Shown here piece after piece: positions 8,517-30,269 of a stretch of DNA of 64,000 nucleotides (its first letter is position 1; each line of letters opens with the position of its first letter). The stretch is from an uncultured Lachnospiraceae bacterium (GTDB lineage Bacteria > Bacillota > Clostridia > Lachnospirales > Lachnospiraceae), in NCBI GenBank assembly GCA_946554445.1, contig CAMNSD010000018.1:1-64000 (forward strand), read 5' to 3'. The notes below the pieces were generated by a model. It made no database searches. It saw only the letters and a program-made list of their open reading frames with translations, and was not told the DNA's origin. The position numbers and the translations under genes are program-made.

Positions 8517-8540
8517 CTGTGGCCATAGGACAGTGGCAGT

Positions 8541-8561: not shown

Positions 8562-8607
8562 GCAGATATGTGGCTCTGCGCCGACCGACTCCCCCTGGTC
8601 ACATTAT

Positions 8608-8690: not shown

Positions 8691-8695
8691 CTTAC

Positions 8696-10574: not shown

Positions 10575-10644
10575 AGTAATTCCTTCTTTCTTTTTTACGA
10601 TTAGTGTCTGTAATTTAGGCATTTTCATACAGGAGTAGGAAAAA

Positions 10645-15050: not shown

Positions 15051-15265
15051 TCGTTTTACCTCTTTTCTTTTTTATTTTTGCCAGTGAATTTGTGAATCCC
15101 TGTTTCCGGCCTCCTTTCCTGAACTCGCCTGTCGCCTCGTTGTTGCGGTATTCGCGCAAAAAAGGCAGGAGATGATGACGGCTATTTGCCGTAGTTATTC
15201 CTGCCTGCGTACAGATATGCTGTATGACAGTCTGCAATATGATTGGTCATGCAGACATAAAAAAG

Positions 15266-15366
15266 AGCCAGAAGGCGTAAAGTGTCCTGCACTTTATACT
15301 TTCTGACTCCGTACAAACTTAAACAGCGTGTGCTTTTCGTTCTGGAACTGCACAAAATTCAATAAC
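15266..15366 (-). promoter_or_regulatory. ligA leader RNA with intrinsic terminator (attenuator)
   Basis: Transcribed on the minus strand between the ligA promoter and gene. It has a 5' box ATTGAATTTTGTGC (15363-15350), then GCACACGCTGTTTA (15333-15320), then GTCAGAAA at the foot of a long hairpin. The hairpin arms (15290-15308 and 15266-15284) enclose TCCTG and are followed on the minus strand by TTTTTT. TGTGC of box 1 can pair with GCACA of box 2. The same three boxes occur in the ssb leader, so this is likely a shared control RNA. Of the gap 15051-15517, the part 15051-15265 shows nothing else to me. Confidence 0.65.
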
Positions 15367-15372
15367 ATAATC

Positions 15373-15421
15373 AGGATACCACAAGATATAGATATAGTCA
15401 ATAGCAAAACACAAGATATAG
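15373..15421 (-). promoter_or_regulatory. ligA promoter with flanking direct repeats
   Basis: On the minus strand, TTGACT (15401-15396), 17 bp and TATCCT (15378-15373). ACAAGATATAG occurs at 15381-15391 within the spacer and again at 15411-15421 upstream of the -35 box. This is a 30-bp period, so a regulator could bind both copies on one DNA face. Confidence 0.65.
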
Positions 15422-15424
15422 AAA

Positions 15425-15450
15425 ATGGGAAGGCCAAAAGACCTTCCCAT
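15425..15450 (-). terminator. Terminator of the 15.5-22.7 kb gene block
   Basis: ATGGGAAGG (15425-15433) pairs perfectly with CCTTCCCAT (15442-15450) around an 8-base loop, and TTT follows on the minus strand. It ends the long run of minus-strand genes just before the ligA promoter. Confidence 0.75.
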
Positions 15451-15517
15451 GGTGTTTAATTCTGCCGGAAAAAGATGTCATTCCAAAGAACCTTTTCAGA
15501 GTATTCGTTAAGAGAAT

Positions 15518-16339
15518 TTAGGCTTCAGAAGGGGTGATGTACTTTGCAATCATTTCCGCCCTGAAGATGGAATCCTCCAGTACCCGGTTAAATTCTGCTA
15601 TACGGTTTTCGGATAACAGGAGTTTCAACAATGCCGCCATTTGATCTTTTCCCTCTGCAACGCCTTTTTCGTAACATGATTTAGTTATCCGTTTCTTCAG
15701 CAGCGCCGCATTTGCAAGCGTGAGAAAATTGTCAGTCAGATACAGGCTTTTCTGCTCTATCTGGATGGAATAGTGGTTCTCGGAATACTGTCCGTCAAGG
15801 TAGCCTTCGTAAAAATCCTCGGACGACTCGGTGCAGAAATCTTCCCGATGTTTCCAGATGTCAAGTATGCTGCTGTGTAGTTCATAATGCAGCCTGTTAT
15901 GGAAAATGTACCTTGCATCTTCATAGTTAGCACACAGTTCCACTGTGCATCCGGTGCTGCCGTCAGAAGCCCAGTCCTGAATAATTGCAAAAACCGGAAC
16001 ATCAGGGCAGTCTTTTTCAGGGGTTCCGAGTGGTTTTATCATTTCCGGAGCCATGATGACTTCATCAAGGCAGATGTCATCAAGTTCTTTGGGTTCCCCG
16101 CATAGACATGAAAAAGTTTTTTTCAGATCCTCAATTTCATGGGGTAACACCGGAGGTTCAAAGCAGCAGTAAATGTCCGGTGTATCGTTTTCAGTTTCTT
16201 TGTTATCGCCGTCGCGGATTTCAGTAATGGTTCCGTATAGTCCCTTATATTCGCTGGCATCAGTTCCGATTACGGCTTCACCGATGATATATGTGGTTCC
16301 TTTGTGTTTGAAAGTAGCGCCCGTTCTGTCAATGACCAT
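15518..16339 (-). CDS. Uncharacterised protein, 273 aa
   Basis: An unrecognised acidic protein, last gene of a block of seven short unknown genes. The N-terminal part has beta-strand character (TTYIIGEAVIG), a middle Cys/Pro-rich stretch includes CCFEPPVLPHE, and the C-terminal third is helical with KKRITKSCYEKGVAEGKDQ. That last pattern (basic, then GxAEGK) is similar in feel to Rpn C-termini, but no nuclease core is present. AGAGGATAATTTT precedes the ATG. Confidence 0.65.
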   Translation of the reverse strand: MVIDRTGATFKHKGTTYIIGEAVIGTDASEYKGLYGTITEIRDGDNKETENDTPDIYCCFEPPVLPHEIEDLKKTFSCLCGEPKELDDICLDEVIMAPEMIKPLGTPEKDCPDVPVFAIIQDWASDGSTGCTVELCANYEDARYIFHNRLHYELHSSILDIWKHREDFCTESSEDFYEGYLDGQYSENHYSIQIEQKSLYLTDNFLTLANAALLKKRITKSCYEKGVAEGKDQMAALLKLLLSENRIAEFNRVLEDSIFRAEMIAKYITPSEA

Positions 16340-16365
16340 AAAATTATCCTCTCTTTCGTTTAAAG

Positions 16366-17112
16366 TTATTTTGCTGTTTTTGTTCTGTTTTTTAGTTCCT
16401 TCAGGTTTTCCATGTGCCTCTCGGCAAAGATGCTGAAGCTCTCGTCCAGATAAGTCTGTCCAGTTTCCTCCATTAGTTTCATGGCTTCTCTTTGCTGAAG
16501 ATACCAGTCTGTCTGGGAGGTTTTCTCCTTATTGCAGACGAGGAGGGTAACGATGGACTTTGGGTATTTCAAATCATGCAGCCTGAAATTTTCTGCATAG
16601 TGCTGTGCTGCTTCCAGATCGTCAAAGATGTCGTGATAGAGCCTTTGCACCAATGGAACGCCTTTGGACGGTGTAAGGAAATCCTCCGTCACGATATAGC
16701 CGAGCTGCTCATTCGGGATGTCTTCTGCATGGTAGGTTGTGATATAGGAAACCTGACCGAAAGCGTAATCCCGCATCAGCGCCCGTTCATTGCCGTCAAA
16801 GGCAGCTTCGTTTTCAAAATATATCTTCCCGTTTGCTTCAAAGGTTTCACATTCCTGATAGGTCACGTTTCCGGAAATGTCCTTTTCTTCAGACTTGATC
16901 ATAAACTGAAAGCAGGATTTTTCGGAGAGCGCCTGCAGGACTTTTTCCCTGATACCTTCCACATAGGGGAAGTCTTTGGCAATGTCATCAGCAATGACTT
17001 CCGGGACAAGAGCATCGTCAATATCATAGGAACCGCTGCTTTTTAACTGTTCGTTGATAGTACGGGAGTCATGCCAGTCGATGCCCCCGTAGGTTGATGC
17101 AGTAATATACAT
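16366..17112 (-). CDS. Uncharacterised protein, 248 aa
   Basis: I place the start at MYITAS (17112), which has GGAGG 5 bases upstream, rather than at the frame's first ATG, which lies ahead of that ribosome site. The protein is acidic and soluble, with many aromatic residues and no visible domain. It ends in a basic tail (ELKNRTKTAK). It shares style with its neighbours, which look like a set of element-specific accessory proteins. Confidence 0.65.
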   Translation of the reverse strand: MYITASTYGGIDWHDSRTINEQLKSSGSYDIDDALVPEVIADDIAKDFPYVEGIREKVLQALSEKSCFQFMIKSEEKDISGNVTYQECETFEANGKIYFENEAAFDGNERALMRDYAFGQVSYITTYHAEDIPNEQLGYIVTEDFLTPSKGVPLVQRLYHDIFDDLEAAQHYAENFRLHDLKYPKSIVTLLVCNKEKTSQTDWYLQQREAMKLMEETGQTYLDESFSIFAERHMENLKELKNRTKTAK

Positions 17113-17165
17113 AAGATCCTCCATTCTTATCATTTCATATGTATTTGTTACCTGACTTACTGCGC

Positions 17166-17720
17166 TCAGACATATGCAGTTTTGGGGAGAGTGACACCCT
17201 CCCGGCTTTTTATGGCAGACTGGTGGTAATCCAGCTCCGTGATGACCGCCTCGATGGTGTCAAATGCTGCGGACAGTTCCAGATACCGGGTGATAAAACC
17301 GGTGACCTCCGTATAGAGGAACATCTGCTGCTGTTTGGTCAGCCGGTTCAGGGCGGAAATCCGTTTCTGTTTTTCCACCCATTCGTCTGCGCAGTAGATA
17401 TTTTCATGTTCCAGAAGCTCCTTCATGTCGGTGTCGGATAGCATTGCCGCCGCCGTGTTGAACCAGGCAGTAGCCGTCTGGCTGCAGTTGTCCTCATCAC
17501 AAAAGGCAATCTTTTTTGCAGGCATCTGCCACCAGAGCCTGCTCTTAATTTCATCCAATTCTGTATACAGGTCAGCCGCCATGTTGCATAATTCATTGAT
17601 CTGGTCGCAGTAATGATCCCAGTAAGGGCTGTCCTTCTCATTTCCGTTGTAGCAATAGTCCATTATTTTATCCAGCCCATCTGATATGGACCATATATCC
17701 AGCTTTTTATAAAGTGCCAT
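17166..17720 (-). CDS. Uncharacterised helical protein, 184 aa
   Basis: Largely alpha-helical, acidic protein with alternating Leu and charged residues throughout. The middle section (WWQMPAKKIAFCDEDN) is the only part with a distinctive pattern. It belongs to the same minus-strand block, 15 bp downstream of the next gene up, with a perfect GGAGGAGT site. No family recognised. Confidence 0.65.
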   Translation of the reverse strand: MALYKKLDIWSISDGLDKIMDYCYNGNEKDSPYWDHYCDQINELCNMAADLYTELDEIKSRLWWQMPAKKIAFCDEDNCSQTATAWFNTAAAMLSDTDMKELLEHENIYCADEWVEKQKRISALNRLTKQQQMFLYTEVTGFITRYLELSAAFDTIEAVITELDYHQSAIKSREGVTLPKTAYV

Positions 17721-17735
17721 TTCCTACTCCTCCTA

Positions 17736-18329
17736 TCAGTATGGGTTCACAAATTCATGGATGGAAACGCAGTCTTCATCCAGATGTTCTTTTAATTCCT
17801 CCAATGTAGCGGCAGAAATACCGCCGCGTTCCTGAAACCACTGGAACATTTCTTTGTCTGTCTCAAAGTAGAAATCCGTATCGCCTTCTGCAGCATCAAA
17901 GAGTGCATCCAGTGAACCGTCCGCCGCCCTTTCCGACAGATATGCTTTATAGTGAGCTGTCAAATAGGAACCGTTTATGTCCGTATTGATATATATACCA
18001 CACCCGGGTTCCTCCGCCTGCAGTTCAAAACTGACATTGAAGTAGTTTGCAAGGCGTAAATAGGCTTCATACTTAGGACTCCATGCGGAGTCGCAGTACA
18101 GGGTAATGTGCCCGTCTTCCACAAGGGAGGTATCCACCACATCGCTGCGGAGGCACAGACCTTCCGTTGGGATGCCGCTTCGCTCAAATATTCGGCAGAG
18201 CATGGAACCATCCACGGAAGTCCCCGTGGGATAACAGGCGATGAGCGCTTTTCTCAGCGTGGCAAGTCCGCATTCCTGTTCATCAGATGCAGCATAAAAT
18301 ACAACGGTATCCATACAGATATTTGCCAT
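17736..18329 (-). CDS. Uncharacterised protein, 197 aa
   Basis: Start chosen at MANICMDTV (18329), preceded by GGAGGCGGTGTGAA. The product opens with a beta-strand-rich segment (MDTVVFYAAS, then a helix ATLRKALIACYP), a fold resembling proteins annotated as having ferredoxin-like or YubB-type domains. A loop with many Gly, Asp and Ser residues follows. The match is too loose for a firm call. It overlaps nothing and starts one base before the neighbouring gene's stop, so it is probably coupled to it. Confidence 0.6.
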   Translation of the reverse strand: MANICMDTVVFYAASDEQECGLATLRKALIACYPTGTSVDGSMLCRIFERSGIPTEGLCLRSDVVDTSLVEDGHITLYCDSAWSPKYEAYLRLANYFNVSFELQAEEPGCGIYINTDINGSYLTAHYKAYLSERAADGSLDALFDAAEGDTDFYFETDKEMFQWFQERGGISAATLEELKEHLDEDCVSIHEFVNPY

Positions 18330-18330
18330 T

Positions 18331-18933
18331 TCACACCGCCTCCTTCCCGTCATCTGCGTGGAAGAACGCAGTGATGTCCCATTCGCCTTTTAGGTATTTT
18401 GCCGCCGGGCATTCCACGCTGCCGTCTTCCTTATTGCACGAACAGCTTCCGTTATGGTGCGTGGAGATCAGGGAGGCGAGGGTTTCCCACCGGACTATCC
18501 TGTCATTTGCCTCGGCAATGCTGCTGCAGCGGTGGTATCTGCCGCAGTCCTGCTCACAGTCTGCCATATCTTTCTCAACGCCCATGCAGACCGCAGGGAC
18601 CATCTCTGAGAGAGTCAGGAAAAACTGCGGCTTGAGGGATTCGTTGTGAAGGTGGTTGAGTGTGAGTTCGATCAGGTCATTATGCCCCATGTTGGCGTCA
18701 TAAAAATCATCAAAGCACATACAGAGCCAGTCCGACAATTCAGGAAATTCCTCAAGGTGTCCTGAATGGAAACGGGTATCCGGGTCCTGTGCGGCATCCG
18801 CAAGGGCATTGGCAAAGTCCTCATCCAGATAGCGGCGTTCCATGATGCGGTAGGCTTTCCCCAGCTCATCGTCAGTGAGGGTGATGGTGGTCTTTTGCCG
18901 GTTTATGGTTCTTTCAATCTGTAAATCTTTCAT
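18331..18933 (-). CDS. Uncharacterised protein, 200 aa
   Basis: An acidic protein starting with TINRQKTTITLTDDELGKAY, a form seen in short element proteins that open with a beta-strand pair. The middle is helical. A Cys-rich section near the C-terminus (CEQDCGRYHRC, then CSCNKEDG and VECPAAKY) could bind a metal such as zinc. No enzyme signature. Its stop lies directly before the start of the 17736 gene, indicating one transcript. Confidence 0.6.
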   Translation of the reverse strand: MKDLQIERTINRQKTTITLTDDELGKAYRIMERRYLDEDFANALADAAQDPDTRFHSGHLEEFPELSDWLCMCFDDFYDANMGHNDLIELTLNHLHNESLKPQFFLTLSEMVPAVCMGVEKDMADCEQDCGRYHRCSSIAEANDRIVRWETLASLISTHHNGSCSCNKEDGSVECPAAKYLKGEWDITAFFHADDGKEAV

Positions 18934-18964
18934 TTTGTCCTCCTGTTCTTATGCTGTTTGCTTG

Positions 18965-19504
18965 TCATGCGCTTTTTTCCTGTGGATGCGCATTGTTCTT
19001 TCTGTAAAGCTCCAGTGGAATCCATTTCCCGTCCTGCCAGAAGCAGTGGGTAGCCACGCAGTAGAGCAGCGGCGGCACCTCCGGATTATCCAGACATTCC
19101 TGCGTGATATACAGGGCAAGGTGCCTGGCATAGAAGGATTCCAGATCCGCAAGGATTTTTTTCCGGAGCATTCCCGCAAGGGTTTCAAATTCCGCTATGT
19201 CCTGATGGGAAAAAGCTGCCTTTGAGAGCTGTTTCAGGATGCCGGAGCATCCGATTGTTTCGTTGACAATGGAAACTGCCTCATCAAGATAATCCTTGTG
19301 GATACGGATACCGTCCAGCGCGATTTCCGCCGCATAATCCGATGCCCTGCGCCTGATTTCCGAGCATAACGAGTCATAGGCTTTTTTATACTTTGTCTTC
19401 AGAATGTCAAGGGAAACATTCTCCCGGTTATTCTTCAGGGTAGTCAGGAGCTTTGCAAGTTCCTCCCTGAGCCGGGCAGTTTCCCTGACCTGTGTTCCGT
19501 TCAT
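18965..19504 (-). CDS. Uncharacterised helical protein, 179 aa
   Basis: Start at MNGTQV (19504) with AAAGGAGGACACACC upstream; the six extra codons before it are not needed. The first 90 residues are strongly helical and basic (RLREELAKLLTTLKNNRE), suggesting a coiled coil. The end of the protein holds a compact, aromatic-rich part (YCVATHCFWQDGKWIPLELY). No known family recognised. Confidence 0.6.
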   Translation of the reverse strand: MNGTQVRETARLREELAKLLTTLKNNRENVSLDILKTKYKKAYDSLCSEIRRRASDYAAEIALDGIRIHKDYLDEAVSIVNETIGCSGILKQLSKAAFSHQDIAEFETLAGMLRKKILADLESFYARHLALYITQECLDNPEVPPLLYCVATHCFWQDGKWIPLELYRKNNAHPQEKSA

Positions 19505-19578
19505 GGTGTGTCCTCCTTTCAAAAGGGCCGCCGCATACAGCAGGCAGCCCTTAGTCAGTTTATTTAGGTTTGCAGGGT

Positions 19579-19845
19579 TCAGGCTGTCACACGGAAGCCT
19601 TCCACCGGCGGGGTATTGTAGGAAATGGTGTAAATGCTGTTCTGCGTTTCAAACCGCACATGGCTGGCGGAAGCCTCTAAGATGGACTGTACGGTGGAAG
19701 TGCGGATCAGGTTTCCGTGGTAGAGGTATGTGACAGGGCTGCCCGGCCTTAATACTTCAGCCAGGGAGCCTGTTACGGAAACCTCACGCTTGGGTGTCTG
19801 TCCGTGGTTCTGGTTATTGCTTTTATTTTTGAATATGGTAAGCAT
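19579..19845 (-). CDS. Uncharacterised small protein, 88 aa
   Basis: A short protein with a basic, Asn/Gln-rich N-terminus followed by predicted beta-strands (SPVTYLYHGNLIRTST, HVRFETQNSIYTISY). The all-beta layout suggests a small SH3-like or OB-like fold, which is inference. AAAGGAGGGATATT precedes the ATG. It lies 12 bp downstream of the methyltransferase gene and is likely co-transcribed. Confidence 0.55.
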   Translation of the reverse strand: MLTIFKNKSNNQNHGQTPKREVSVTGSLAEVLRPGSPVTYLYHGNLIRTSTVQSILEASASHVRFETQNSIYTISYNTPPVEGFRVTA

Positions 19846-19857
19846 AATATCCCTCCT

Positions 19858-20913
19858 TTAAGCGACCTTATAGTTCAGGCGGTATGTGCCGTTCCCACAG
19901 GCGGTATACTGGCTCCGGTGTTCATAGATGGTTGCCCGGATACGATCCTTATAGTGATTGTTTTTCTTTGACTTCGGATGGTTCTTCAGCTTTTCGTACA
20001 GTTCTGTCAGCGTGATCTCCCCGCCAACGCTTTCAAGCGTCATGCGGATCAGGTGATGCCATGTCAGGGCAGTCAGGTCCGTGTCGGCAACGGAAAAATA
20101 GCTTTCCCTTGCATAGAGGAAAGGCACCATGAGGGCGTCTTTCTTGTGCAGAAGGAGCAGGTATTCCGTCACAATGGGGATGAACGGTTTCTGGTAGCGC
20201 CTGCTGTCAGAAACACAGTTGAACTGCCCTTTTACGAGAAAGGACTCGAAATCCCCCATGCGCATCATGTCATGCTGGATGGAATAAAACCTGCCCTGCA
20301 TCCGGATGTCGCCCACAAGGACAGCCATGCGGCCGTCTTTACGGAGCGCCATATAAAACTTCCGGATACAGAGGTTCAGCTTTTCCAGAAAGTCGTTGTA
20401 ATTCTCGCAGCGTGACAGGTCATCTGGGTGAGGTTTTCCCCACATATTCCCGGAATACTGAATAATGTTGTGGTAAGGCGGATGGAAAAAGATCAGATCC
20501 GCCGAGTCCTCCACATCATTTTTCAGGGCGTTCCACCCGCCCCTGCCCGCAGACGGGGCAGGGTTTAAGTCATACAGGATGGAGTTTACGCCGAACCGGT
20601 CAGCGGCAGCCTTGCTGGTGCCTGAACCGGACATGGGATCGAGCAGGGTAAACTGTGATGTGTCCTTTCCGTAGTAATGCTTGGTGTCGAGGACGTAGCG
20701 CAGGATGGCGGCTACCACCTCCGGGGAGCAGTTGCCCCGCCACTGGCTGCTTCCGCCGTTTCCGCGCTCAGGAAATGCCATGAATGAGGTCAGCTCTTTC
20801 CCGACACGTTTCCTCAGATTTTCCGTTCCTAATTCCTGTGCGATGCCCTGCCAGTCCGGGCCAAATTCCTGCTCTAAGATGGCGGCTGCACGTCTGATGA
20901 TATTCTGGTCCAT
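19858..20913 (-). CDS. DNA methyltransferase (N6-adenine or N4-cytosine type)
   Basis: A 351-residue SAM-dependent DNA methyltransferase. The SAM-binding motif I is DPMSGSGTSKAA (about residues 92-103). The catalytic motif IV is HPPYHNI (about residues 145-151), an HPPY variant of the D/N-PPY signature. The C-terminal 80 residues look like a winged helix (LTELYEKLKNHPKSKKNNH). The start at 20913 is coupled to the upstream stop (TAATG). No restriction enzyme lies next to it, so it is probably an orphan, perhaps protecting the element from host restriction. Confidence 0.88.
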   Translation of the reverse strand: MDQNIIRRAAAILEQEFGPDWQGIAQELGTENLRKRVGKELTSFMAFPERGNGGSSQWRGNCSPEVVAAILRYVLDTKHYYGKDTSQFTLLDPMSGSGTSKAAADRFGVNSILYDLNPAPSAGRGGWNALKNDVEDSADLIFFHPPYHNIIQYSGNMWGKPHPDDLSRCENYNDFLEKLNLCIRKFYMALRKDGRMAVLVGDIRMQGRFYSIQHDMMRMGDFESFLVKGQFNCVSDSRRYQKPFIPIVTEYLLLLHKKDALMVPFLYARESYFSVADTDLTALTWHHLIRMTLESVGGEITLTELYEKLKNHPKSKKNNHYKDRIRATIYEHRSQYTACGNGTYRLNYKVA

Positions 20914-21368
20914 TATGACACCTCCGCAAGCCGGCTCTGGGCGCATACGGTGATGCGGTCCCTGTAATCAAGAGTTTGTCCGTCCTGAAAGAGAAGGCAG
21001 GCGGATTTTAATGTGACTGGCAGATACACCATGCTTTTTTGATAAAAATATTCCGTGTATACTTCCAGAAGGTAGGTGTCGTGGTATCTGGCGGCAAAAA
21101 AACTAAAATCCAGTTCAGATGCTTCCAGCCCCAGTTTCTCATATTCGTCCGCAAAAATCTTCGGATCAAAATTCCTGATACACGCATTGATGCGGACAAT
21201 GGAGCCTGCGTTTCCTTCCGTGCCGCCCTCTGTGATACTGAAGTCAAGCGGCAGCTCCTTCCCTTCCATCAGGAAGGTCACGGTGCCTACCGAAAGGAAG
21301 GTATCCTTCGGGCGTTCAATGGGAACCAGACTCTCGTACTGCAGTTCCATTCCGTATATTCCATTCAT
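20913..21368 (-). CDS. Uncharacterised protein, 151 aa
   Basis: A beta-strand-rich, acidic protein with no signal peptide. It contains KDTFLSVGTVTFLMEGKELPLDF (about residues 21-43, split here by its strand pattern) and a second half with many Tyr and Phe residues. It is translationally coupled to the methyltransferase downstream by a TAATG overlap, hinting at a shared role. No domain recognised. Confidence 0.6.
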   Translation of the reverse strand: MNGIYGMELQYESLVPIERPKDTFLSVGTVTFLMEGKELPLDFSITEGGTEGNAGSIVRINACIRNFDPKIFADEYEKLGLEASELDFSFFAARYHDTYLLEVYTEYFYQKSMVYLPVTLKSACLLFQDGQTLDYRDRITVCAQSRLAEVS

Positions 21369-21386
21369 GTTTTCTTCACTCCTTTG

Positions 21387-21923
21387 CTAAAAATTTATTT
21401 CCGTAAGTCGCATCCTCATGCGGCGGAACCGCCCATTGATGCTATGCACGGTGGTAGAAAATATTTCTGCGATTTCCCGGCAGGTCAGCCCGTCTGCTTT
21501 CAGGTGTACCATCTGCTGTTCTGTTTCTGTCAGGCAGGAAAGTATCTCCATTGCAAGCAGGCGGTCAGCCGTTTGAGTCGGTATGTCCTTCTGGCGGTCA
21601 GGCAGGACTTCATCCAGAGCCAACCCGTTATTTGTAACGGCATAGATACTGACGGTAGGCGCCTTGCGCTTTGGCTTGTTTTCATAAGCGTAATGTTTGC
21701 TCAGGCAGTCGCTCATTTTTGTCCATGCAATCGTGTCAAACTGGAAACGGGACAGGGCAGGGTTTTCGTTATATTCCTGAACTGCGTGGAGATACCCGAA
21801 GATCACGATGTCATAATAATCGTCAACCGGGAGTCTTTTCTGCTGCAGGAAGCGGAATACAATATTCTGGTGTTCCTCTGCGAACTGTCTCTGTAAGGGT
21901 GTCATTTCATGTAATCTGCTCAT
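21387..21923 (-). CDS. Sigma-70 family RNA polymerase sigma-like factor
   Basis: A 178-residue protein with a region-2-like first half (RQFAEEHQNIVFRFLQQ, DDYYDIVIFGYLHAVQ) and a clear region 4 helix-turn-helix at the end (LTETEQQMVHLKADGLTCREIAEIF, then a basic helix). Such small sigma-like factors on Clostridia elements direct polymerase to element promoters or act as activators. A terminator just upstream at 21949 separates it from the preceding genes, so it likely has its own promoter or depends on read-through. AAGGAGAAAAACAT precedes the ATG. Confidence 0.75.
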   Translation of the reverse strand: MSRLHEMTPLQRQFAEEHQNIVFRFLQQKRLPVDDYYDIVIFGYLHAVQEYNENPALSRFQFDTIAWTKMSDCLSKHYAYENKPKRKAPTVSIYAVTNNGLALDEVLPDRQKDIPTQTADRLLAMEILSCLTETEQQMVHLKADGLTCREIAEIFSTTVHSINGRFRRMRMRLTEINF

Positions 21924-21948
21924 ATGTTTTTCTCCTTTTCCTGAAAAA

Positions 21949-21983
21949 AAGGGAATACCGCTCCGGCATTCCCTTCTTAAACA
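21949..21983 (-). terminator. Terminator after the 22013 gene
   Basis: AAGGGAATACC (21949-21959) pairs with GGCATTCCCTT (21965-21975). On the minus strand a run of seven T follows. It ends the VWA/MoxR block and reduces read-through into the sigma-like gene. Confidence 0.85.
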
Positions 21984-22012
21984 ATGTTTTATTTGTTGAT
22001 TTATCTGTTCTT

Positions 22013-22669
22013 TTATGCTGCTCTCTGGGCTGCCTGCCTTGCCGCCACCGCGTTTTTCGCTTTGGTGATGAGCGAGGGGGCAATGGCGTGTTCCCAGCAG
22101 TCAATATAGGAGGATACGCTGCTTAAGAGATCAAACAGGTCAAGGTCACTTAAATTGGCATATACCTTTCCCGTACTGACAAAAGAGTTGGGTTTCATGT
22201 AGGTTCCGCCATTGGCATTCTGCTGTGGTATCCCTTTGCCGTTCTCCACTTCAACATACCATGGGAGTTTCCGTACATTCCCTTTGCCGTCCTTGGTGGC
22301 GCGGATGATCCGTACCTTTGAAACTTTTGAGTAGCCCTGTTCATCCTTGTCACCGAAGATTTTATCCTGCTGGAAAGTGTATTCCTGAAAACCGGCGCTC
22401 AGGCGGCTTAAGATGAACTTTGCCTCCTGCGGGGAGATGTTGGCGCATACAGTGACCGCCTTATCCCCGGTGCCTTTGGAATAATCCTTCATCAGAATCC
22501 CGATCAGGGAATGCACCCGCTTCCCGTCTGCGCCTTTTTCACCGCCTGCGTGGATATGGGCATAGGATGTGATGGGTGCGACTTTGAGCTTGTCCTGAAA
22601 TTCCAGCAGTGTCTTGCTGTTCTTATAGACTGCTATCTGGTTTGAGATGTAATCTTCATTCGTATTCAT
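22013..22669 (-). CDS. Uncharacterised protein, 218 aa
   Basis: A basic protein of unknown family following the VWA gene. It has scattered Lys and Gly residues, a central KVRIIRATKDGKGNVRK stretch with strand character and an Ala-rich helical C-terminus (AKNAVAARQAAQRAA). No membrane segment. The close spacing (27 bp) and shared terminator place it in one unit with the VWA protein and AAA+ ATPase, so it may be a substrate or partner of that chaperone-like system. Confidence 0.65.
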   Translation of the reverse strand: MNTNEDYISNQIAVYKNSKTLLEFQDKLKVAPITSYAHIHAGGEKGADGKRVHSLIGILMKDYSKGTGDKAVTVCANISPQEAKFILSRLSAGFQEYTFQQDKIFGDKDEQGYSKVSKVRIIRATKDGKGNVRKLPWYVEVENGKGIPQQNANGGTYMKPNSFVSTGKVYANLSDLDLFDLLSSVSSYIDCWEHAIAPSLITKAKNAVAARQAAQRAA

Positions 22670-22696
22670 GCTGATACCTTCTTTCTGAATTTTGTT

Positions 22697-24772
22697 TTAT
22701 GCTGCAAATCTGTTCTTTACCTGCTGGATGATGAGCCTGCCCAGATTGACGGGAAGTTTTTCAAGGTTTGTGATGTCAAGGAACCCGTCCCCGTAGATCC
22801 GCTGGATATTGGGCTTGTCGCTTCCGATTGCTGCGGCAAACATCTGTATCCCTTTTGCGGAATATTCCTTCTTGATGCCCCGCAGGTCTGCCTCCGCTTC
22901 CGTGCCGTAGTAATTCTCCGCTGCAGGCTGTCCGTCCGAGATGATGATCAGGAGTTTGATAGCCTCCGGTCTTGTCATCAGGCGTTCCGCCACATAGCGC
23001 AGGGCGGCGCCGTCACGGTTCCCGGATCTGGCGCTCATGTCCATCAGCCGGTACTGGTCTTTGTTGTCGATGGAGTCAAACTCTGCATAAGCGTAAAGCT
23101 CCACATCGTCAAATTCCGTGTGGCCGTAAATGGCAACCGGGATATCCAGCCCCTTGCAGAAATCATGCAGGATAATGGATGCGGAGCGGGCATAAGTGAT
23201 GCGGTTGCAGGAACTCATGGAGCCGCTTTCGTCATTTAAGATGGCAACGGCGATGTCTGTCCGGTCATTGGGGAGCTTGAGCTTGTAAAAGAGCCTCCCG
23301 TCATTGCGGACAGCGTTGCGCACGTTGATCCGTTTTCCCATGGGAAGGTTGTCCAGCTTCCCGCCTTCCTTATAGTCTTTTAATATCTGTTCTATCTGTT
23401 TCTGAAGCCGCTTGGAAATTAAAAGAAGCGGAGGAGCCACTTTTTGGTAGGCTGCCATATAGGAGGGATCGACATAGGACATACGGTTAATATTGACGTG
23501 CATACCGCGGTGCGCATTGCCGTAACGGATCTTATCCGATTCTGCCTGAAGCTCCTCGGAAAGCTCCTCCTCAAAGTCAGCATAAGATGCCTCCTCTGCG
23601 AGCTGCGTCAGGATGTGTTCCATGTCTTCCGCTGCCTGCGACACATAACCTGTGCCTGCATAGTCAGTCGTGCGGCTGATGCCGCCGTCCCCGTCTTCCC
23701 CGATTTCTTCCGTTTTCTCCAGGGCAATCCGCCCTTCCTCATAATCAAGGGCCTGCTGGAGCTGTTCGCGCTCATCCTCGTCAGAAGACGGATCATGTGA
23801 TGCCGCTGCACCTTTTACTGGTGTCCCGGTGCCTCCCGGAAGGGGCGCACCGCCGGCAAGCTGGCTGCTTAAGTCAGCTTCCGCCTTGCTTGTGCCGTTC
23901 TTGATGTCTTCCCGCACCTGCTTGATGTAGCTTTCCATATAAGGCCACAGAAAGAGCAGCATCTTGTTGGCGGCATCGAATCGTACCTTTGAATCGTCGT
24001 CATAGGCGGCATCGTCAATATAGGGGATGCACTCATAAACGGTATTAAGGTACGGTCCCTTATAACCGCCCAGATTGTTGATGTCCCCGGTCTTTGTGTA
24101 CTGGATCAGCAGGTTTGCCACGATGATCACTTCATGGTGCTGCTTGTCTATTTCTTCCGTGACGGAATCCATTTCATCGGCAAAGCGCAGGTTGTTTAAC
24201 AGGATGCCTGTCTTTAAGCTGCCGGGAAAGGCGTCGCACATACGGCCTTCGATATAAACGTCTTCCATCATGTTTACCAGAGAGTGCGCAATATCGCACA
24301 GCGCCTTGATGACCGCCTCATCCTTTTCCTCAAAAAATTCAAGGATTTCCCTCAGACTTCTTTCCTGTTTTGCTGACAGGTCCTCCGGCATCTGCGGATA
24401 AAACCTGCCGCCCTGTAAGGACTGGCGGTAGGTAGCCAGCATGGTAAAATCCGAGAACAGGATGTGCCCGCACTCGTGTCCCACGATTCCCAGCAGGCTG
24501 TCTGCCCGCAGGGGCCTTGTGGGGAAACTCCGCGTAAGGAAGTTCCCTGTATTGACGGTAATGGTGCGGTTGTCTGTATGGGCGACCTCGGCACGGGGCA
24601 GCGCATCCCAGTAAGTCTTTACGCTGCTTTTTCTCCGGTAGCGGCCGGTGGTTCCTTCTGCTATGTCTGTCAGGTATGCGGCAAACTGCGGCGAGGCAAA
24701 GAGCTGTTCGTCCGTCAGTTTACTTTTTTTCTCAGCGATCCTGCGTCGGATTGCCATATGTGATGTCCTCAT
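22697..24772 (-). CDS. VWA-domain protein with HExxH motif (CobT/VWA chaperone-like)
   Basis: A 691-residue protein with two recognisable parts. The first third contains GHECGHILF (near residue 98), an HExxH motif like that of zinc metallopeptidases. The last third is a von Willebrand A domain with the MIDAS motif NDESGSMSS (near residue 515) and a following ISDGQPAAE stretch. A low-complexity acidic linker (DEDEREQLQQALDYEEG) joins them. With the MoxR-like ATPase two genes upstream it forms a MoxR-VWA pair, a combination known for remodelling or metal-insertion complexes. The ATG overlaps the XRE gene by 41 bp. Substrate unknown. Confidence 0.88.
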   Translation of the reverse strand: MRTSHMAIRRRIAEKKSKLTDEQLFASPQFAAYLTDIAEGTTGRYRRKSSVKTYWDALPRAEVAHTDNRTITVNTGNFLTRSFPTRPLRADSLLGIVGHECGHILFSDFTMLATYRQSLQGGRFYPQMPEDLSAKQERSLREILEFFEEKDEAVIKALCDIAHSLVNMMEDVYIEGRMCDAFPGSLKTGILLNNLRFADEMDSVTEEIDKQHHEVIIVANLLIQYTKTGDINNLGGYKGPYLNTVYECIPYIDDAAYDDDSKVRFDAANKMLLFLWPYMESYIKQVREDIKNGTSKAEADLSSQLAGGAPLPGGTGTPVKGAAASHDPSSDEDEREQLQQALDYEEGRIALEKTEEIGEDGDGGISRTTDYAGTGYVSQAAEDMEHILTQLAEEASYADFEEELSEELQAESDKIRYGNAHRGMHVNINRMSYVDPSYMAAYQKVAPPLLLISKRLQKQIEQILKDYKEGGKLDNLPMGKRINVRNAVRNDGRLFYKLKLPNDRTDIAVAILNDESGSMSSCNRITYARSASIILHDFCKGLDIPVAIYGHTEFDDVELYAYAEFDSIDNKDQYRLMDMSARSGNRDGAALRYVAERLMTRPEAIKLLIIISDGQPAAENYYGTEAEADLRGIKKEYSAKGIQMFAAAIGSDKPNIQRIYGDGFLDITNLEKLPVNLGRLIIQQVKNRFAA

Positions 24773-25043
24773 TCGTTGTATTCCCTTCTTTCTTATTCAT
24801 ATTTTCAGGAAGTTCCGCCATAAAGAGCGCATCCGTGGTCAGCCCGAAAAAATCCGCTATCGCCACAAGTACATGGGCAGGCGGCAGGCTTATGGCATTT
24901 TCATACCGGGAAATGCTTTTCTGGGTGACTTCCAGCTTTGCTGCGAGCATCTGCTGGGACAGGTAGGGTTTGCGCTGCTCCCTGAGATACCGCAGGTTTC
25001 TTGCAAGGTTCTGTTTTAACTGGTCTTCCTTTACCGGTGCCAT
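24732..25043 (-). CDS. XRE-family helix-turn-helix regulator
   Basis: A 103-residue protein with an HTH_XRE domain: LARNLRYLREQRKPYLSQQMLAAKL, recognition helix TQKSISRYENAISLPP, and closing helix LVAIADFFGLTTDALF. The tail is polar. It lies between the AAA+ ATPase and the VWA gene, overlapping the latter by 41 bp, which suggests strict co-expression. It may autoregulate the module. GGAGGGAACGCCT precedes the ATG. Confidence 0.85.
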   Translation of the reverse strand: MAPVKEDQLKQNLARNLRYLREQRKPYLSQQMLAAKLEVTQKSISRYENAISLPPAHVLVAIADFFGLTTDALFMAELPENMNKKEGNTTNEDITYGNPTQDR

Positions 25044-25055
25044 AGGCGTTCCCTC

Positions 25056-26843
25056 CTATGCTGCAAATTTCTGCTCCAGACAGGATGAGAGGATGTCGGC
25101 GCGGTTTTCCGGATCGCTGGAAACAGAGGAGAGTACGGTATACTTTGCCGCTTCCATGATGTTCCCGCAGACCATAAAGGACTGCACCCAGCTTATCAAC
25201 TCCCGCACGCCGCAGCTCCCATCAGTAATCATGGTTTCCCTGCAGCGTTCACTGATCTCCTGTATGGAGGCGGCCATATCTGAAACGGCTGACCTGTCCG
25301 TGCATCCGGTCACTTTCATGGTGCGTTCCGTCAGTGTATCCACATCGGGTTCCTCCATGTCCATGATAAGGTTCATTCTTGAAATAACGGACTGGTTCAT
25401 GTCACGGCAGCCTGCGTAGTTGTTGTTTGTTGTCACCACGACCACTGTATCGGGATGTCTGTGTATCACCTCACCCGTAGTCAGCGTGACGCTTGCGCAG
25501 CGGTCCAGAAGGGCGTTTAAGCCCACCAGCACGCCCGGATTGGCAATTACTGTGGGTTCCTGTATCTCAATCACATATCCGTTCCTGATAGCGGTGATCA
25601 AGGGTGTTTCCACATAACGGAACCGCTGCCCGGAGGCATTGTCTGCCATCAGTGCCTTTGCATCCTGCGCCATGACCTCCAGCAGTTTTTCATATACTTC
25701 CGCATCCGTAACGGCTTCGTCGTAGATTCCCGTCAGTTTCTTATAGGCGGAAGGCGGGTCCATCTGGATGTCGGTCAGTGTCGGGTATTCCTTGTTTCCC
25801 TGCGCCTTTTCATCCGTTTCAGGAAGCATCTGCCCAAGAAAATCATAGATCTCCGTATTTGCGGAGCAGGTGTAATACAGGTAGGGAAGCCCCAAGCCCG
25901 CAGCGATTGCCTTTGCGCCCTCGGTCTTGCCGGTTCCTGCCGGCCCCCGCATCATAAAATTGCGCATGGGCTGGCTGCCTGCCGTTGTCATTTGGGCGTG
26001 CCTGCAGATGGTGGTGACTTCCGGCGGAATGACGTACCAGTCCTCGATCCGGGGCACCATCAGCTCCTCCTTCGCCGTAAGTGTCCTGTCCGAAAGGGGA
26101 TAGTGTTTTACGAAGTCATCCCTGTTTACGGAAACAGCGGCGGCAGAGGCAGCCGTACCCGTCAGGATGCGGAAGCTGCCAAACAGCACGCTGCTTGGGG
26201 AATAGGCGTTTCTGGATAAGTTCACAGCGGTGAGCTGCGGGAGGTTTCCTGTGGACGGTATGTTCAGCTTGATGCCGGCAGAGGGCAGCGTATCTGCGCC
26301 CTCAATCCTCCGGTAGAGGTTGTCGCACAGGATGAAAGCGGCTTTTGATGCCTCATCCATGTCCGTAAAGCCGTCGTTTTTACATTTTCCAAGCAGGTCG
26401 TAGTTTTCCCGGAACTCATCATCCTTCATGGCTTCCGGGATCAGCACAAAGAAAAGCGCTGTGCCGATACTGCCGCCGTCCTTTAGGGAATAGACCTTCG
26501 GGGCGGAGGTGGCATCTTCAAACCGGCCTACATTGAATTTGCCGTTCTTTCTGTTAAATACTGCCACATGAATCTCACCTGTACGGCTCTGGTATTCCGC
26601 CACGGTTTTGTCGCCCTGTGTGCCGATGGCGCTCTGGGAGGAGCTGCCCGGTGTCAGGCTGGTATCCATCTCCATGTAGGCAAGGACTGCCGCAAGGAGA
26701 GGGGAGTGCAGCGTGGCTTTTTTGGAAGCCACTGTACAGTAAGTGGAGTAGTAGGTGGTGCTTGTATTTGATGCGATCTTGTCGAAAGGCTCAGGAAGAC
26801 CGATTTTCCATGTCCAGTTTGCAAATAATTGTACTTTTGCCAT
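25056..26843 (-). CDS. MoxR-like AAA+ ATPase
   Basis: A 595-residue protein whose C-terminal half is an AAA+ domain: Walker A GPAGTGKTEG (about residues 300-309), a Walker B-like hydrophobic strand with YVIEIQEP, sensor-1 TTNNNYAG, and an arginine-finger region SVISRMNLI. The N-terminal 280 residues are unfamiliar and beta-rich. It resembles MoxR/dynein-like ATPases that work with VWA proteins, matching the VWA gene downstream. ATP-driven remodelling of a DNA or protein complex during element transfer is a plausible role but is inference. Confidence 0.87.
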   Translation of the reverse strand: MAKVQLFANWTWKIGLPEPFDKIASNTSTTYYSTYCTVASKKATLHSPLLAAVLAYMEMDTSLTPGSSSQSAIGTQGDKTVAEYQSRTGEIHVAVFNRKNGKFNVGRFEDATSAPKVYSLKDGGSIGTALFFVLIPEAMKDDEFRENYDLLGKCKNDGFTDMDEASKAAFILCDNLYRRIEGADTLPSAGIKLNIPSTGNLPQLTAVNLSRNAYSPSSVLFGSFRILTGTAASAAAVSVNRDDFVKHYPLSDRTLTAKEELMVPRIEDWYVIPPEVTTICRHAQMTTAGSQPMRNFMMRGPAGTGKTEGAKAIAAGLGLPYLYYTCSANTEIYDFLGQMLPETDEKAQGNKEYPTLTDIQMDPPSAYKKLTGIYDEAVTDAEVYEKLLEVMAQDAKALMADNASGQRFRYVETPLITAIRNGYVIEIQEPTVIANPGVLVGLNALLDRCASVTLTTGEVIHRHPDTVVVVTTNNNYAGCRDMNQSVISRMNLIMDMEEPDVDTLTERTMKVTGCTDRSAVSDMAASIQEISERCRETMITDGSCGVRELISWVQSFMVCGNIMEAAKYTVLSSVSSDPENRADILSSCLEQKFAA

Positions 26844-26872
26844 AATTCATTCATCCTTCTTTCTATTGTTTT

Positions 26873-27778
26873 TTAGATCCATGAAACCTGCAGACTGTTG
26901 TCTGAGATTTTTCCTTTGAGTTCGTTTTCCTCCAGAATGGAGAGCAGTTCCTTCCAGTAAGTTTTTCCCGGAAAAGAGTCGAGGGTTGCCTTCAGGATTT
27001 TCTTTTTCTGGCAGCTTACGACAATATCCCCGTTTTCCTTGATTGTGAGCATGGAGTGGCCGTTGGCATTTAAGTCAGTGATCAGTTCCTCCAGTACCTT
27101 TTGCCCAATCAGCTCATACCATACCCTTACATCCACGACGGATGGTTCCGGATTTGTTTCTGCGTCTGCGCTGCCGGATTCAGGTCTTTCGTCCGCACTG
27201 TTTTCCGTAGGTTCGGCAAAACTGCCGATTACCATTGGCTCTACATGGATGCGCCCGAAGCGGTCAAAGGAAATATCCGCATGGGTGTAGGCATCCATGT
27301 TCTCCACCAGAATACGGGTGGTTTCACCGTTCAGGATGCCCTGCAGGGAAGGTGTGTCCTTCCATTGCCAGACAGACTGGGGGTAAGCAGATTTTAGCTT
27401 TTCCGTGATCCGCAGCGAGATATGGAGCAGTACGGTTTGGCATTCCCTGCTGTCAGAAGCGGGAAGTGCGGGTTTTGCAGGAGAAATGGGTTCCTCAGAT
27501 TGTGCTGGCTGGTCCTGTACTGGAACCGGCGGTAATGTCTTTTCCGAATCTGCCAATATCTGCCCGACTGACTGTTTCAGGGCAGATAAAAGTGCGCGGC
27601 ATTTTTTGATAAGTTTCCCTGACTTTCGCAGCAAAAGGAAACCGATTGCCGCGGCAATCCATAAGATGAGGGCAAGTGCCATCAGCTTTTGGGAGCGGTC
27701 TTTTGGGAAAAAGACAGCCAGAAGCAGCAGGGATATGATCAGGATTTTCATACTTTTGGTAAATACGGTTTTTCTCAT
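26873..27778 (-). CDS. Membrane-anchored uncharacterised protein, 301 aa
   Basis: Two hydrophobic segments near the N-terminus (about residues 11-24 and 32-49), then a polar linker rich in Pro, Glu and Ser. A cytoplasmic or extracellular C-terminal domain of about 170 residues follows, with ordered strands (TLLHISLRIT-like, MLTIKENGDIVVS). No signal peptidase site is obvious. It is the first gene of the MoxR-VWA block and could tether that complex to the membrane. Confidence 0.65.
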   Translation of the reverse strand: MRKTVFTKSMKILIISLLLLAVFFPKDRSQKLMALALILWIAAAIGFLLLRKSGKLIKKCRALLSALKQSVGQILADSEKTLPPVPVQDQPAQSEEPISPAKPALPASDSRECQTVLLHISLRITEKLKSAYPQSVWQWKDTPSLQGILNGETTRILVENMDAYTHADISFDRFGRIHVEPMVIGSFAEPTENSADERPESGSADAETNPEPSVVDVRVWYELIGQKVLEELITDLNANGHSMLTIKENGDIVVSCQKKKILKATLDSFPGKTYWKELLSILEENELKGKISDNSLQVSWI

Positions 27779-27805
27779 TTGGTTTTTTCAGTCCTTTCTC
27801 TTCTT

Positions 27806-27862
27806 AAAATAAAAAAAGAGGAATCACATCCGGGGATTTGTTTCCCTGGTGCAATTCCTCTT
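27806..27862 (-). terminator. Terminator of ssb
   Basis: AAGAGGAAT (27816-27824) pairs with ATTCCTCTT (27854-27862), with an inner CCGGGGATTTG/TTTCCCTGG-like pairing. On the minus strand TTTTTTTATTTT follows. It ends the ssb transcript. Confidence 0.85.
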
Positions 27863-27886
27863 GTACCGCCAGCCGTGCCAAAGGCA

Positions 27887-28309
27887 TCAGTTGAACGGCA
27901 GTCCATTCTCGCCACAGTTTTCCATGTCCATAAAACCGTCATCTGTGTCTGCAGGTGCGCCGCTGCCAGTATTGGCATTGTTGTCCGTGCGTTTCCCTGT
28001 CGGGACATAGTTCCAGTCATGTACCGTGATCTTTGCAATCGTGCCTTTGGAGTTGTCCGACTTGCGTGTAAATTCCACAAGATCAAGGTCGCCCGTGATA
28101 AAGAGCAGGCTGCCTTTTTTGACTCCAGCCTTGCTGATCCTCTCAGTTGCTTTACCAAACAGGACGCACTGGTAGAAATTGGCGTGTTCCTGTTCGCCGT
28201 AGCCTTTGTTGACCGCCACGTTGAACTGGATGTAATCGGTTCCGCCCGCGCTGGTCTGGATTTCAAGGTCTGCTGTAACCCTGCCCATGAGTGTGATTTG
28301 TGTGAACAT
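27887..28309 (-). CDS. ssb: Single-stranded DNA-binding protein
   Basis: OB-fold protein that coats single-stranded DNA during replication and conjugative transfer. Start at MFTQITLMGRVTAD (28309), with AAAGGAGA before it; the 40 extra codons of the longer frame run through the leader RNA. Characteristic SSB stretches follow: FNVAVNKGYG and NFYQCVLFGKATERI (about residues 29-60). The flexible tail ends GLPFN, a variant of the acidic tip that binds partner proteins. At 140 residues it has normal length. Expression passes through the attenuator leader at 28352-28474. Confidence 0.93.
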   Translation of the reverse strand: MFTQITLMGRVTADLEIQTSAGGTDYIQFNVAVNKGYGEQEHANFYQCVLFGKATERISKAGVKKGSLLFITGDLDLVEFTRKSDNSKGTIAKITVHDWNYVPTGKRTDNNANTGSGAPADTDDGFMDMENCGENGLPFN

Positions 28310-28351
28310 AGTTTCATTCTCCTTTCCTGATGAAAAAATTTTTGGTTGCAT

Positions 28352-28474
28352 CAAAAAAAGTGCCAAAAAACTGCCACTTACCGGCATGGTTTTTCTGACA
28401 CTTAATTCAATCATAAACAGCGTGTGCATCTATGCGCATGGCATATCCCTGTGGGAAGCACAAAAATCAATTAC
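28352..28474 (-). promoter_or_regulatory. ssb leader RNA with intrinsic terminator (attenuator)
   Basis: Same plan as the ligA leader, minus strand. Box 1 ATTGATTTTTGTGC (28471-28458), box 2 GCACACGCTGTTTA (28427-28414), box 3 GTCAGAAA (28399-28392). Then AAGTGTCAGAAAAAC pairs with GTTTTTTGGCACTT and a T-run, forming a long terminator stem (28357-28405). A competing pairing AGTGGCA/TGGCACT inside it offers an alternative fold. Box 1 starts at the same distance from the -10 box (9 bp) as in ligA. The rest of the gap to 28562 holds only the promoter. Confidence 0.65.
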
Positions 28475-28480
28475 AGGAAC

Positions 28481-28509
28481 ATTTTAGCACAATATATGGA
28501 GTATGTCAA
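28481..28509 (-). promoter_or_regulatory. ssb promoter
   Basis: On the minus strand, TTGACA (28509-28504), 17-bp spacer, TAAAAT (28486-28481). A near-consensus sigma-A promoter, similar in sequence over its full length to the ligA promoter. Confidence 0.8.
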
Positions 28510-29711: not shown

Positions 29712-30269
29712 TCAGGCTGTCAGTTTTTCTTCCCGCAGCATTTTTGCGGCTCTGGAGATCCATGCCGCCACATGGTTCGGCGGGGCGCCGTAGTGCGCGG
29801 CAATCTCCACCCCGGTATGTCCCCTGCATTTCAGCGCCAGCGCTTCCATCCCTTTCCGTGTAATGCCGGAACAGCGTTTCCCGGCTTCGTCGAGAAAGAT
29901 AAAGATGTCGGTGTCTGACAGTGCGTGGAAATTCCGGTCAGGAAAAGTTTCCGCAAAGGTCAGATCCGAACCGTCAGATTGTGGTGCATCCATGTATTCC
30001 AGTGGCCTCTGTATCCTTGTGGCTTTCCTGCACTGGGAAATCAGGCGGTTTTTGATGACCACGGATGCAAAGGTGGGGAAGGATGCGCCGCCGTCTTCCC
30101 GATATTTCTGGGCGGCATGGCATAGCGCTTCGCAGGCGGTCTGGTAGAGATCGTCATATCCCAGCCCTTGTACGGACTCGTTGATGGTCACTGTACCCAG
30201 TACCGTGTCCCGCACAAGATACAGGTGCCTTTCCACCAGTTCTGTTTCCTGTCTGCTCATTGCTGCCAT
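29712..30269 (-). CDS. Sigma-70 family sigma-like factor
   Basis: A 185-residue protein with a region-2-like segment (LGYDDLYQTACEALCHAAQKY, PTFASVVIKNRLISQCRK, about residues 36-80), similar to the sigma-70 core-binding and -10 recognition helices. The C-terminal part (GHTGVEIAAHYGAPPNHVAAWI) is a helix-turn-helix like region 4. This sigma factor lies at the end of the Tad pilus operon, and may recognise promoters used by other element genes. Confidence 0.8.
   Translation of the reverse strand: MAAMSRQETELVERHLYLVRDTVLGTVTINESVQGLGYDDLYQTACEALCHAAQKYREDGGASFPTFASVVIKNRLISQCRKATRIQRPLEYMDAPQSDGSDLTFAETFPDRNFHALSDTDIFIFLDEAGKRCSGITRKGMEALALKCRGHTGVEIAAHYGAPPNHVAAWISRAAKMLREEKLTA

Follow-up and report, generated by a model that had tools for sequence, protein, structure and literature searches.

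The stretch of DNA analysed here, hereafter the window, comprises 64,000 nucleotides (nt) of contig CAMNSD010000018.1 from an uncultured Lachnospiraceae bacterium (assembly GCA_946554445.1). On its minus strand, ligA, which encodes an NAD-dependent DNA ligase, and ssb, which encodes a single-strand DNA-binding protein, are each preceded by a leader ending at an intrinsic terminator. The original prediction had given both genes a TTGAC-17-TA promoter, a box 1 at equal distance from it, a box 2 and a terminator, and inspection of the sequence confirms the promoter, the boxes and the terminator in each leader. The two boxes are the strands of two helices, P0 and P1, and on the evidence of sequence comparison both leaders are members of a new family of 5'-terminal leader RNAs from conjugative and integrative elements in gut Bacillota. 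The features are listed below, with E-values from the covariance model R1 and pair scores for tandem boxes of the NrdR type, both of which are described further on.

15409-15424 (-): ligA upstream NrdR-type box, centre 30 base pairs (bp) from the next box, pair score 23/32
15379-15394 (-): ligA downstream NrdR-type box, inside the promoter spacer
15373-15401 (-): ligA leader promoter, TTGACT-17-TATCCT
15259-15367 (-): ligA leader RNA including terminator 1, model R1, E=3e-9
15350-15367 (-): ligA box 1, TGTTATTGAATTTTGTGC, 5' strands of helices P0 and P1
15312-15333 (-): ligA box 2, GCACACGCTGTTTAAGTTTGTA, 3' strands of P1 and P0, then TTTGTA
15265-15310 (-): ligA terminator 1, opening with GGAGTCAGAAA, -21.9 kcal/mol
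15163-15206 (-): ligA terminator 2, -20.5 kcal/mol
13029-15050 (-): ligA, NAD-dependent DNA ligase, 673 amino acids
28518-28533 (-): ssb upstream NrdR-type box, centre 31 bp from the next box, pair score 26/32
28487-28502 (-): ssb downstream NrdR-type box, inside the promoter spacer
28481-28509 (-): ssb leader promoter, TTGACA-17-TAAAAT
28354-28475 (-): ssb leader RNA including terminator 1, model R1, E=4.4e-11
28458-28475 (-): ssb box 1, TGTAATTGATTTTTGTGC, 5' strands of P0 and P1
28406-28427 (-): ssb box 2, GCACACGCTGTTTATGATTGAA, 3' strands of P1 and P0
28358-28403 (-): ssb terminator 1, opening with AAGTGTCAGAAAA, -18.2 kcal/mol; ssb start codon 48 nt past its end
27887-28309 (-): ssb, single-strand DNA-binding protein, 140 amino acids, Pfam SSB 1.3e-17
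27816-27862 (-): ssb operon terminator 2, just past the ssb stop codon, -25.4 kcal/mol
26873-27778 (-): ssb operon gene 2, 301 amino acids, no Pfam match
21948-21976 (-): another intrinsic terminator farther down the ssb operon, separating two co-directional genes, -18.6 kcal/mol

In each operon a second terminator (T2) follows the terminator of the leader (T1), before ligA in one case and after ssb in the other. These second terminators, the tandem NrdR-type boxes and a third copy of the leader in the same genome (G000:C1:12874-13043; L151, L159) go beyond the original prediction. The frame 28317-27775, taken from the list of open reading frames, was rejected as ssb: it has no Pfam match, and Pfam SSB fits 28309-27887. 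Gene 2 of the ssb operon is related to gene 2 of the canonical ssb operon at locus L021 (34% identity over 185 amino acids, E=8e-35).

The distance from the -10 hexamer to box 1 is equal in the two leaders. The 14-mer GCACACGCTGTTTA has 2 exact copies in the window and, with up to 3 mismatches, 8 matches against 3.85 expected; the gapped pair GTGC..GCACACGCTGTTTA has two matches in all in the 4.39-megabase genome from which the window comes (hereafter the own genome), where a reversed control pattern has none. When the box 1-box 2 cores of the two window leaders were folded alone, their energies were ordinary (z -0.30 and -0.12), and adding T1 gave z-scores of -2.78 and -2.07 that are due mostly to the terminator. 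The case for a leader RNA is one of comparison, not of folding energy.

The pattern searches gave at least 138 matches, and 123 were kept as members because GT follows box 2, a -35-like motif lies within 26-43 nt, and a T-run (TTTT) stands behind box 2; the T-run criterion alone excluded no complete pattern match. Among the 15 dropped, L083 is a member cut by a contig end and 14 look like chance matches, 12 of them from records titled as other phyla and 2 from Bacillota (L049, L057). Other phyla are absent from the titles of the kept records, several of which say only 'bacterium'. The titles that name a group we take to be those of Clostridia (Lachnospiraceae, Oscillospiraceae and their kin), apart from L061, a Merdibacter and presumably one of the Erysipelotrichia. 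Strains of Enterocloster, Anaerotruncus and Eisenbergiella are represented too. Close copies are included: the core is unique in 98 members, and filtering the 122 fully flanked members to less than 90% identity leaves 42. The member counts are a lower bound, as one contig scan gave at least 118 stretches.

Searches elsewhere returned few members. Within the genus, 7 of 145 genomes carry the pattern, the own genome included, one of them as a chance match (G107, L018); these same-genus copies are of the ligA type. An order-wide search with the exact pattern found only the own genome among 392, because the exact pattern is too strict and members are sparse. A blastn search with the ssb leader pointed to one record of Subdoligranulum and to two contigs labelled as fecal 'phage'; four 24-nt matches to Pediococcus plasmids were taken as chance. 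A viral scan with GTGC..GCACACGCTGTTTA gave 9 stretches, none having box 1, and stricter viral scans gave one member apiece, a fourth scan giving the same two.

For a search independent of the window, we built R1 from an alignment (A1) of 29 canonical members from other genomes, none from the window. R1 recovers both window leaders, at 28475-28354 and 15367-15259, and the next window match has E=3.8. In the R1 census, for which the large searches ran with stricter filters, matches at E<=0.001 were found in 17 of 299 genomes of the own family and 4 of 391 of the class, the own genome counted in both, in 2 of 398 of the phylum (the own genome and G1305, outside the class), and in 1 of 38 in the family of G552, namely G552 itself, which has seven R1 matches on two contigs, one partial. 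No Rfam 15 family exceeds its gathering threshold for the leaders, and in the window only tRNAs pass; six member loci gave two irrelevant matches below threshold, and permissive thresholds also brought nothing relevant. In the open-licence literature of PubMed Central, judged mostly on titles and the starts of abstracts, we recognised no description of the family. The candidate unnamed leader RNA family of the original prediction thus has at least 123 members, no Rfam 15 match and a model that finds both window leaders, and by these comparisons it exists, with many members besides the two that suggested it.

Several members have unusual arrangements. Those outside the class (L201, L202, on G1305:C252) have an apparent extra hairpin between the two parts of box 2. 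In a Gemmiger genome (L028), two leader matches stand back to back and diverge, at 2611-2710 (-) and 2867-2982 (+). At L111, three lie within 3.4 kilobases (kb), at 4150-4295, 5680-5797 and 7355-7502, all (-), and the middle one is without P1 and has no recognisable promoter.

The structure was assessed in alignment A3, which holds 86 R1 matches (81 distinct rows) from 77 sources picked for diversity among the window and 197 loci. In A3, 94.9% of the cells are paired and 26 of 32 pairs change on both sides; such both-sided changes fill 169 cells, against 44.8 +/- 6.4 in shuffled alignments (0/500) and at most 41 when partners were slid. Compensatory changes are present in all six helices. In P0 (UUGAU/GUUAA), the outer pair is UA in 58 rows, AU in 6, CG in 3 and UG in 2, and is unpaired in 11. 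In P1 (UGUGC/GCACA), one pair is GC in 71, GU in 6 and AU in 2, and another is CG in 71, UA in 1 and unpaired in 1. The pairing of TGTGC in box 1 with GCACA in box 2, proposed from the two window leaders, is thus borne out by compensatory changes. Further members and covariation of base pairs had been set beforehand as the tests on which the proposal could fail; both were looked for and both were found. Some model-found variants of P1 can be read directly, namely UUUUUAUGC..GCAUACG in L151, the third copy of the own genome with its compensatory UAUGC/GCAUA, and GUGU..ACACAC in L167. The remaining helices are three inner hairpins, in canonical members, and T1. P0 and P1 together enclose 0-3 variable hairpins and are followed in most types by the linker UUUGUA and then T1; the ligA type has just a 16-nt loop inside P1, and the window ssb type one or two hairpins.

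The leader appears to begin where the RNA begins. In 80 of the 86 A3 matches, both window copies included, the first model position lies 5 nt past the -10 box, with a -35 to -10 spacer of 17 in 73 and 18 in 7. The other 6 comprise four for which the scan chose a different hexamer pair, L021 at 4 nt, and the middle L111 match. In 119 of 123 members the -35 box is 39 nt from box 1, a distance to be read with the 26-43 nt range required at selection. Since it is the -10 box, not the -35 box, from which the distance is constant, box 1 goes with the start of the RNA and is probably its 5' end.

Upstream of this putative start site, the promoters carry what we predict to be a tandem NrdR-type operator. 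Across 48 representative promoters, two stretches upstream of box 1, at -29 to -18 and at -59 to -50, are conserved as CNATATMTTGTG and CWATATATRG, and the 16-bp boxes match the NrdR consensus. Tandem pairs score at least 23 in 93 of 96 unique promoters and in 13 of 1920 dinucleotide shuffles, with box centres spaced by 30 (67 promoters), 31 (28) or 32 (1); among random window stretches, those over both leaders included, 22 of 3000 score at least 22. Within 1,500 nt upstream of four host nrdD-type genes, tandem pairs score 25 (L194) and 26 (L196), and 21 and 19 at the other two loci. A strict NrdR-box pattern found 8 loci in the own genome, none recognisable by eye as lying at a reductase gene. 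The host has one NrdR match, on G000:C23 and not on the window contig. Boxes with 14-17 bp spacers are reported to be bound by every NrdR tested (PMC12051234).

Downstream, terminators are frequent. Of the 106 members that fall into the five main clusters of genes, 99 have a detected T1 and 87 have another terminator ahead of the chosen gene; T2 lies mostly 90-165 nt past box 2 in the yqaJ, cluster-2 and ligA types, and in cluster 1, where the chosen gene is mostly the second gene, the further terminator sits after ssb. As the detector reports many terminators within genes, gap positions were used for the control. In the gaps upstream of genes at loci L026-L143, chance-match loci included, 35 of 74 leader gaps contain two or more strong co-directional terminators, 18 contain one and 21 none, and of 164 gaps without a leader 1 contains two and 29 contain one.

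A long open reading frame lies within 900 nt of 118 of the 123 members. By cluster, the frames encode a yqaJ-type exonuclease (39), belong to ssb operons (27 and a further 4), encode LigA (15) or an unassigned protein family with a median of 401 amino acids (21, cluster 2), or are single (12). The representative of cluster 2, L036:824-2206 (-), was not convincingly matched by any family of Pfam, NCBIfam or PHROGs. The third own-genome copy precedes a 387-amino-acid protein without a Pfam match, a relative of which (47% identity) stands behind a G552 leader.

On seven contigs, leader sites are convergent and 58-88 kb apart (L033/L036, L030/L143, L039/L089, L044/L106, L122/L059, L073/L107 and L031/L113). 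In OY725878, the yqaJ leader (20582-20734, forward) heads yqaJ, a gene resembling recD2 and, farther downstream with a frame on the opposite strand in between, one resembling ligA; an ssb leader lies ~78 kb away in the opposite direction. Since there are several leaders per element, one RNA type heads several operons. The window contig itself looks like a conjugative element, with a VirB4-like gene (52240-55431), a VirD4-like gene (47563-49485) and a Tad/Flp-pilus-like set at 33719-41150 (-) (T2SSE ATPase, AAA_31, RcpC, DUF4320, DUF6550). By eye, a similar Tad/Flp-like set stands upstream of the OY725878 ssb leader. Elsewhere in the window, two proteins of sigma-70-type similarity, weak for the first, are encoded at 21387-21923 and 29712-30269 (-), and at 8863-10628 (-) a Ku gene adjoins a gene for an ATP-dependent DNA ligase, near a tRNA cluster at 7939-8691.

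The family, its structure, its position and its association with terminators come from comparison; what we infer from them is antitermination and control by NrdR. We favour, with somewhat better than even confidence, the reading that the leaders are antitermination RNAs like put of phage HK022 and canT of Tn916, of a new sequence family, a likeness drawn from descriptions of those systems. Once folded, the 5' RNA would bind, by itself or together with host factors, to the elongating RNA polymerase from which it emerged, and the RNA-bound polymerase would ignore T1 and T2, as with put and canT. Polymerases without the RNA would stop at T1 or T2, and genes for replication and recombination (ssb, ligA, yqaJ, recD2) would thereby be insulated from stray transcription. 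The promoters would be repressed through the tandem NrdR boxes, and whenever the host lifted repression of its own nucleotide-reductase genes, these genes of the element would open too. Processive antitermination predicts terminators in tandem behind the leader. A more far-reaching form, which we hold tentatively and consider doubtful as a whole, is a multi-copy, RNA-only regulon in which the 5'-terminal RNA licenses only polymerases from the element's own NrdR-controlled promoters, because it must sit at the 5' end of the transcript, with host sensing of deoxynucleoside triphosphates opening the genes.

Several points weigh against the antitermination reading or reduce the force of its evidence. 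At the detection threshold, 21 of the 74 leader gaps have no terminator, some because the leader faces another gene; the detector is crude, with many matches inside genes at loose settings; and the presence of T1 is partly conditioned, as TTTT behind box 2 was required and R1 contains T1. In OY725878, no further strong terminator stands in those co-directional gaps behind the yqaJ leader that were examined, from 21 to 39 kb, so that passage of T1 and T2 is implied and long-range action is not demanded. P0 is imperfect, its outer pair being unpaired in 11 of 80. A3 was fitted to R1, which favours its own pairs, and in pattern-found members the letters of the boxes were fixed, so that their invariance arises partly by construction. 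Binding by NrdR is predicted from the promoter sequences alone. Finally, other promoters may serve the genes: a promoter-like pair, TTGGCA-17-AAAAAT (9/12), overlaps T1 of the window ssb leader, and the gap after T2 has a 9/12 promoter match in 11 of 15 ligA-type members (shuffled mean 7.5). The check on the ssb start, set out below with the small-RNA alternative, slightly lowers the odds of antitermination, which we leave at rather above even.

A fairly unlikely alternative is that the leader is a nut-like site, inactive as RNA alone and bound by a protein complex (N/NusB-like) of the element or the host. The boxes are nearly invariant beyond what pairing needs, also in model-found members, as would be expected of a protein-binding site, and box 2, CGCTGTTTAAG, is faintly like the boxA consensus, CGCTCTTTA. 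Against this, the first long genes at the operon starts differ and, among frames of at least 60 amino acids there, include no common gene for a dedicated protein. In the rrn leader of G897, a member-bearing genome, the stretch GCACTTTGAAAACAG, which we read as boxA, is unlike box 2 beyond GCAC, and the best match to CGCTGTTAAG has 3 mismatches. The identification of box 2 as boxA is not supported by this one rrn leader; the own assembly contains no 16S gene.

The original prediction had called the element an attenuator. If it were a regulated one, a ligand or protein bound to the leader would decide whether T1 forms, one gene at a time. A structured 5' leader that ends at an intrinsic terminator shortly before a gene fits this, and hairpins of varying number could hold a sensor. 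On average over 38 representatives, however, no pairing in the leader competes with T1: the pairing of the leader with the T1 arm amounts to -12.15 kcal/mol for own sequences, -12.62 for swapped (p=0.82) and -12.93 for shuffled ones (p=0.97), and the pair probability of T1 is 0.95 alone and 0.93 in the full leader. In one exception, L046:6743, T1 is weakened from 0.96 to 0.26. Moreover, the strong second terminator that often follows would still halt transcription, the variable interior (0-3 hairpins; 16 nt in the ligA type) leaves no conserved pocket besides the boxes, and no Rfam family reaches its gathering score, sub-threshold matches being far below. Because no pairing that competes with T1 was found, a classical attenuator is unlikely, slightly more so than the nut-like site. 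Antitermination acting on RNA polymerase fits better, given that missing competitor and a second terminator that a single attenuator would not overcome. The other part of that proposal, that the leader governs read-through, is kept in the antitermination reading, in which the leader RNA would do so.

Less probable again, and in our view a poor fit, is a small RNA that is terminated at T1 and works in trans, with leaky transcription or separate promoters accounting for expression of the genes. Leaders come with a promoter and a terminator of their own, the similar copies present several to an element could make up a small-RNA family, and the promoter-like pairs just mentioned, the weak one over T1 of the window ssb leader and the one past T2 in the ligA type, could serve the genes. 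In 27 of 31 ssb-cluster members, a start codon with its ribosome site could be placed 38-48 nt past T1, that is, 104-118 nt past box 2 as placed by the ribosome site; an alternative ssb promoter would therefore have to overlap T1, and the best hexamer score in that stretch is only 5-8/12 in 23 of 27 members and 9/12 in the other 4, the window ssb being one of these. In the other types, the ligA type excepted, the gaps past the last terminator hold no promoter better than in shuffled sequence. Leaders also repeatedly precede genes of DNA metabolism, which argues against the small-RNA reading. That the boxes are operator sites in DNA, their pairing incidental, is highly improbable: the promoters do carry a strongly conserved tandem operator, but it lies upstream of boxes 1 and 2 and is distinct from them, and P0, P1 and the inner hairpins all show compensatory changes, which point to RNA.

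Should the antitermination reading hold, RNA of this kind would be common as a layer of control in the mobile elements of abundant gut bacteria, and the replication genes of these elements would be linked to host nucleotide sensing through NrdR. The alignment of 86 matches with compensatory changes offers a structural hypothesis, a set of natural variants and a compact test case. RNA antiterminators named in the papers cited here are few: put, EAR, conAn2 and canT.

EAR has a family of its own in Rfam, and the leaders were matched by none of the Rfam families. EAR, from the eps operons of Bacillales, resembles the leaders as an RNA antiterminator for which no dedicated protein is known (PMC11658703). 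It differs in serving chromosomal exopolysaccharide operons. The conAn system of pLS20 also acts at the start of Gram-positive conjugation operons that hold many terminators; it differs in needing the protein ConAn1 besides the RNA conAn2 and in heading a conjugation operon (PMC8955417). At the starts of the leader operons, the first long genes (at least 60 amino acids), checked for a conAn1-type gene, are yqaJ, the ssb operon, ligA and unknowns. As for the operator, the leader boxes have 14-15 bp spacers, inside the bound range of 14-17 bp (PMC12051234); known NrdR boxes control ribonucleotide reductase operons, whereas the leader boxes are predicted to control replication and recombination operons of the element.

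The systems closest by description are canT and put. canT is a cis-acting processive antiterminator of the integrative and conjugative element Tn916 and most likely an RNA; a terminator shields the DNA-processing genes, and canT allows transcripts of the element itself through (PMC11658703). The leaders are like canT in being paired with a terminator that would insulate DNA-processing genes of the element. canT, however, was studied as a 452-bp region whose activity predicted structures are reported not to explain, and lies at the opposite end of the integrated element from its terminator T1 (PMC11658703), whereas the leader RNA adjoins T1, has a compact, 5'-terminal core and occurs in several copies per element. 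The put RNA of HK022, which needs no dedicated protein, is likewise structured and, at ~70 nt, similar in size; putL comes directly after its promoter, and two copies serve two early promoters (PMC9378689), as the leaders likewise occur in several copies. It differs in having two stem-loops and in coming from an E. coli phage (PMC9378689), and the leader RNA is closed by P0 and P1 around 0-3 inner hairpins, belongs to Bacillota and has an adjacent terminator. In the cryo-electron microscopy structure, the first duplex of put begins at nucleotide 3, near where P0 would be expected to start in the leader RNA (PMC9378689).

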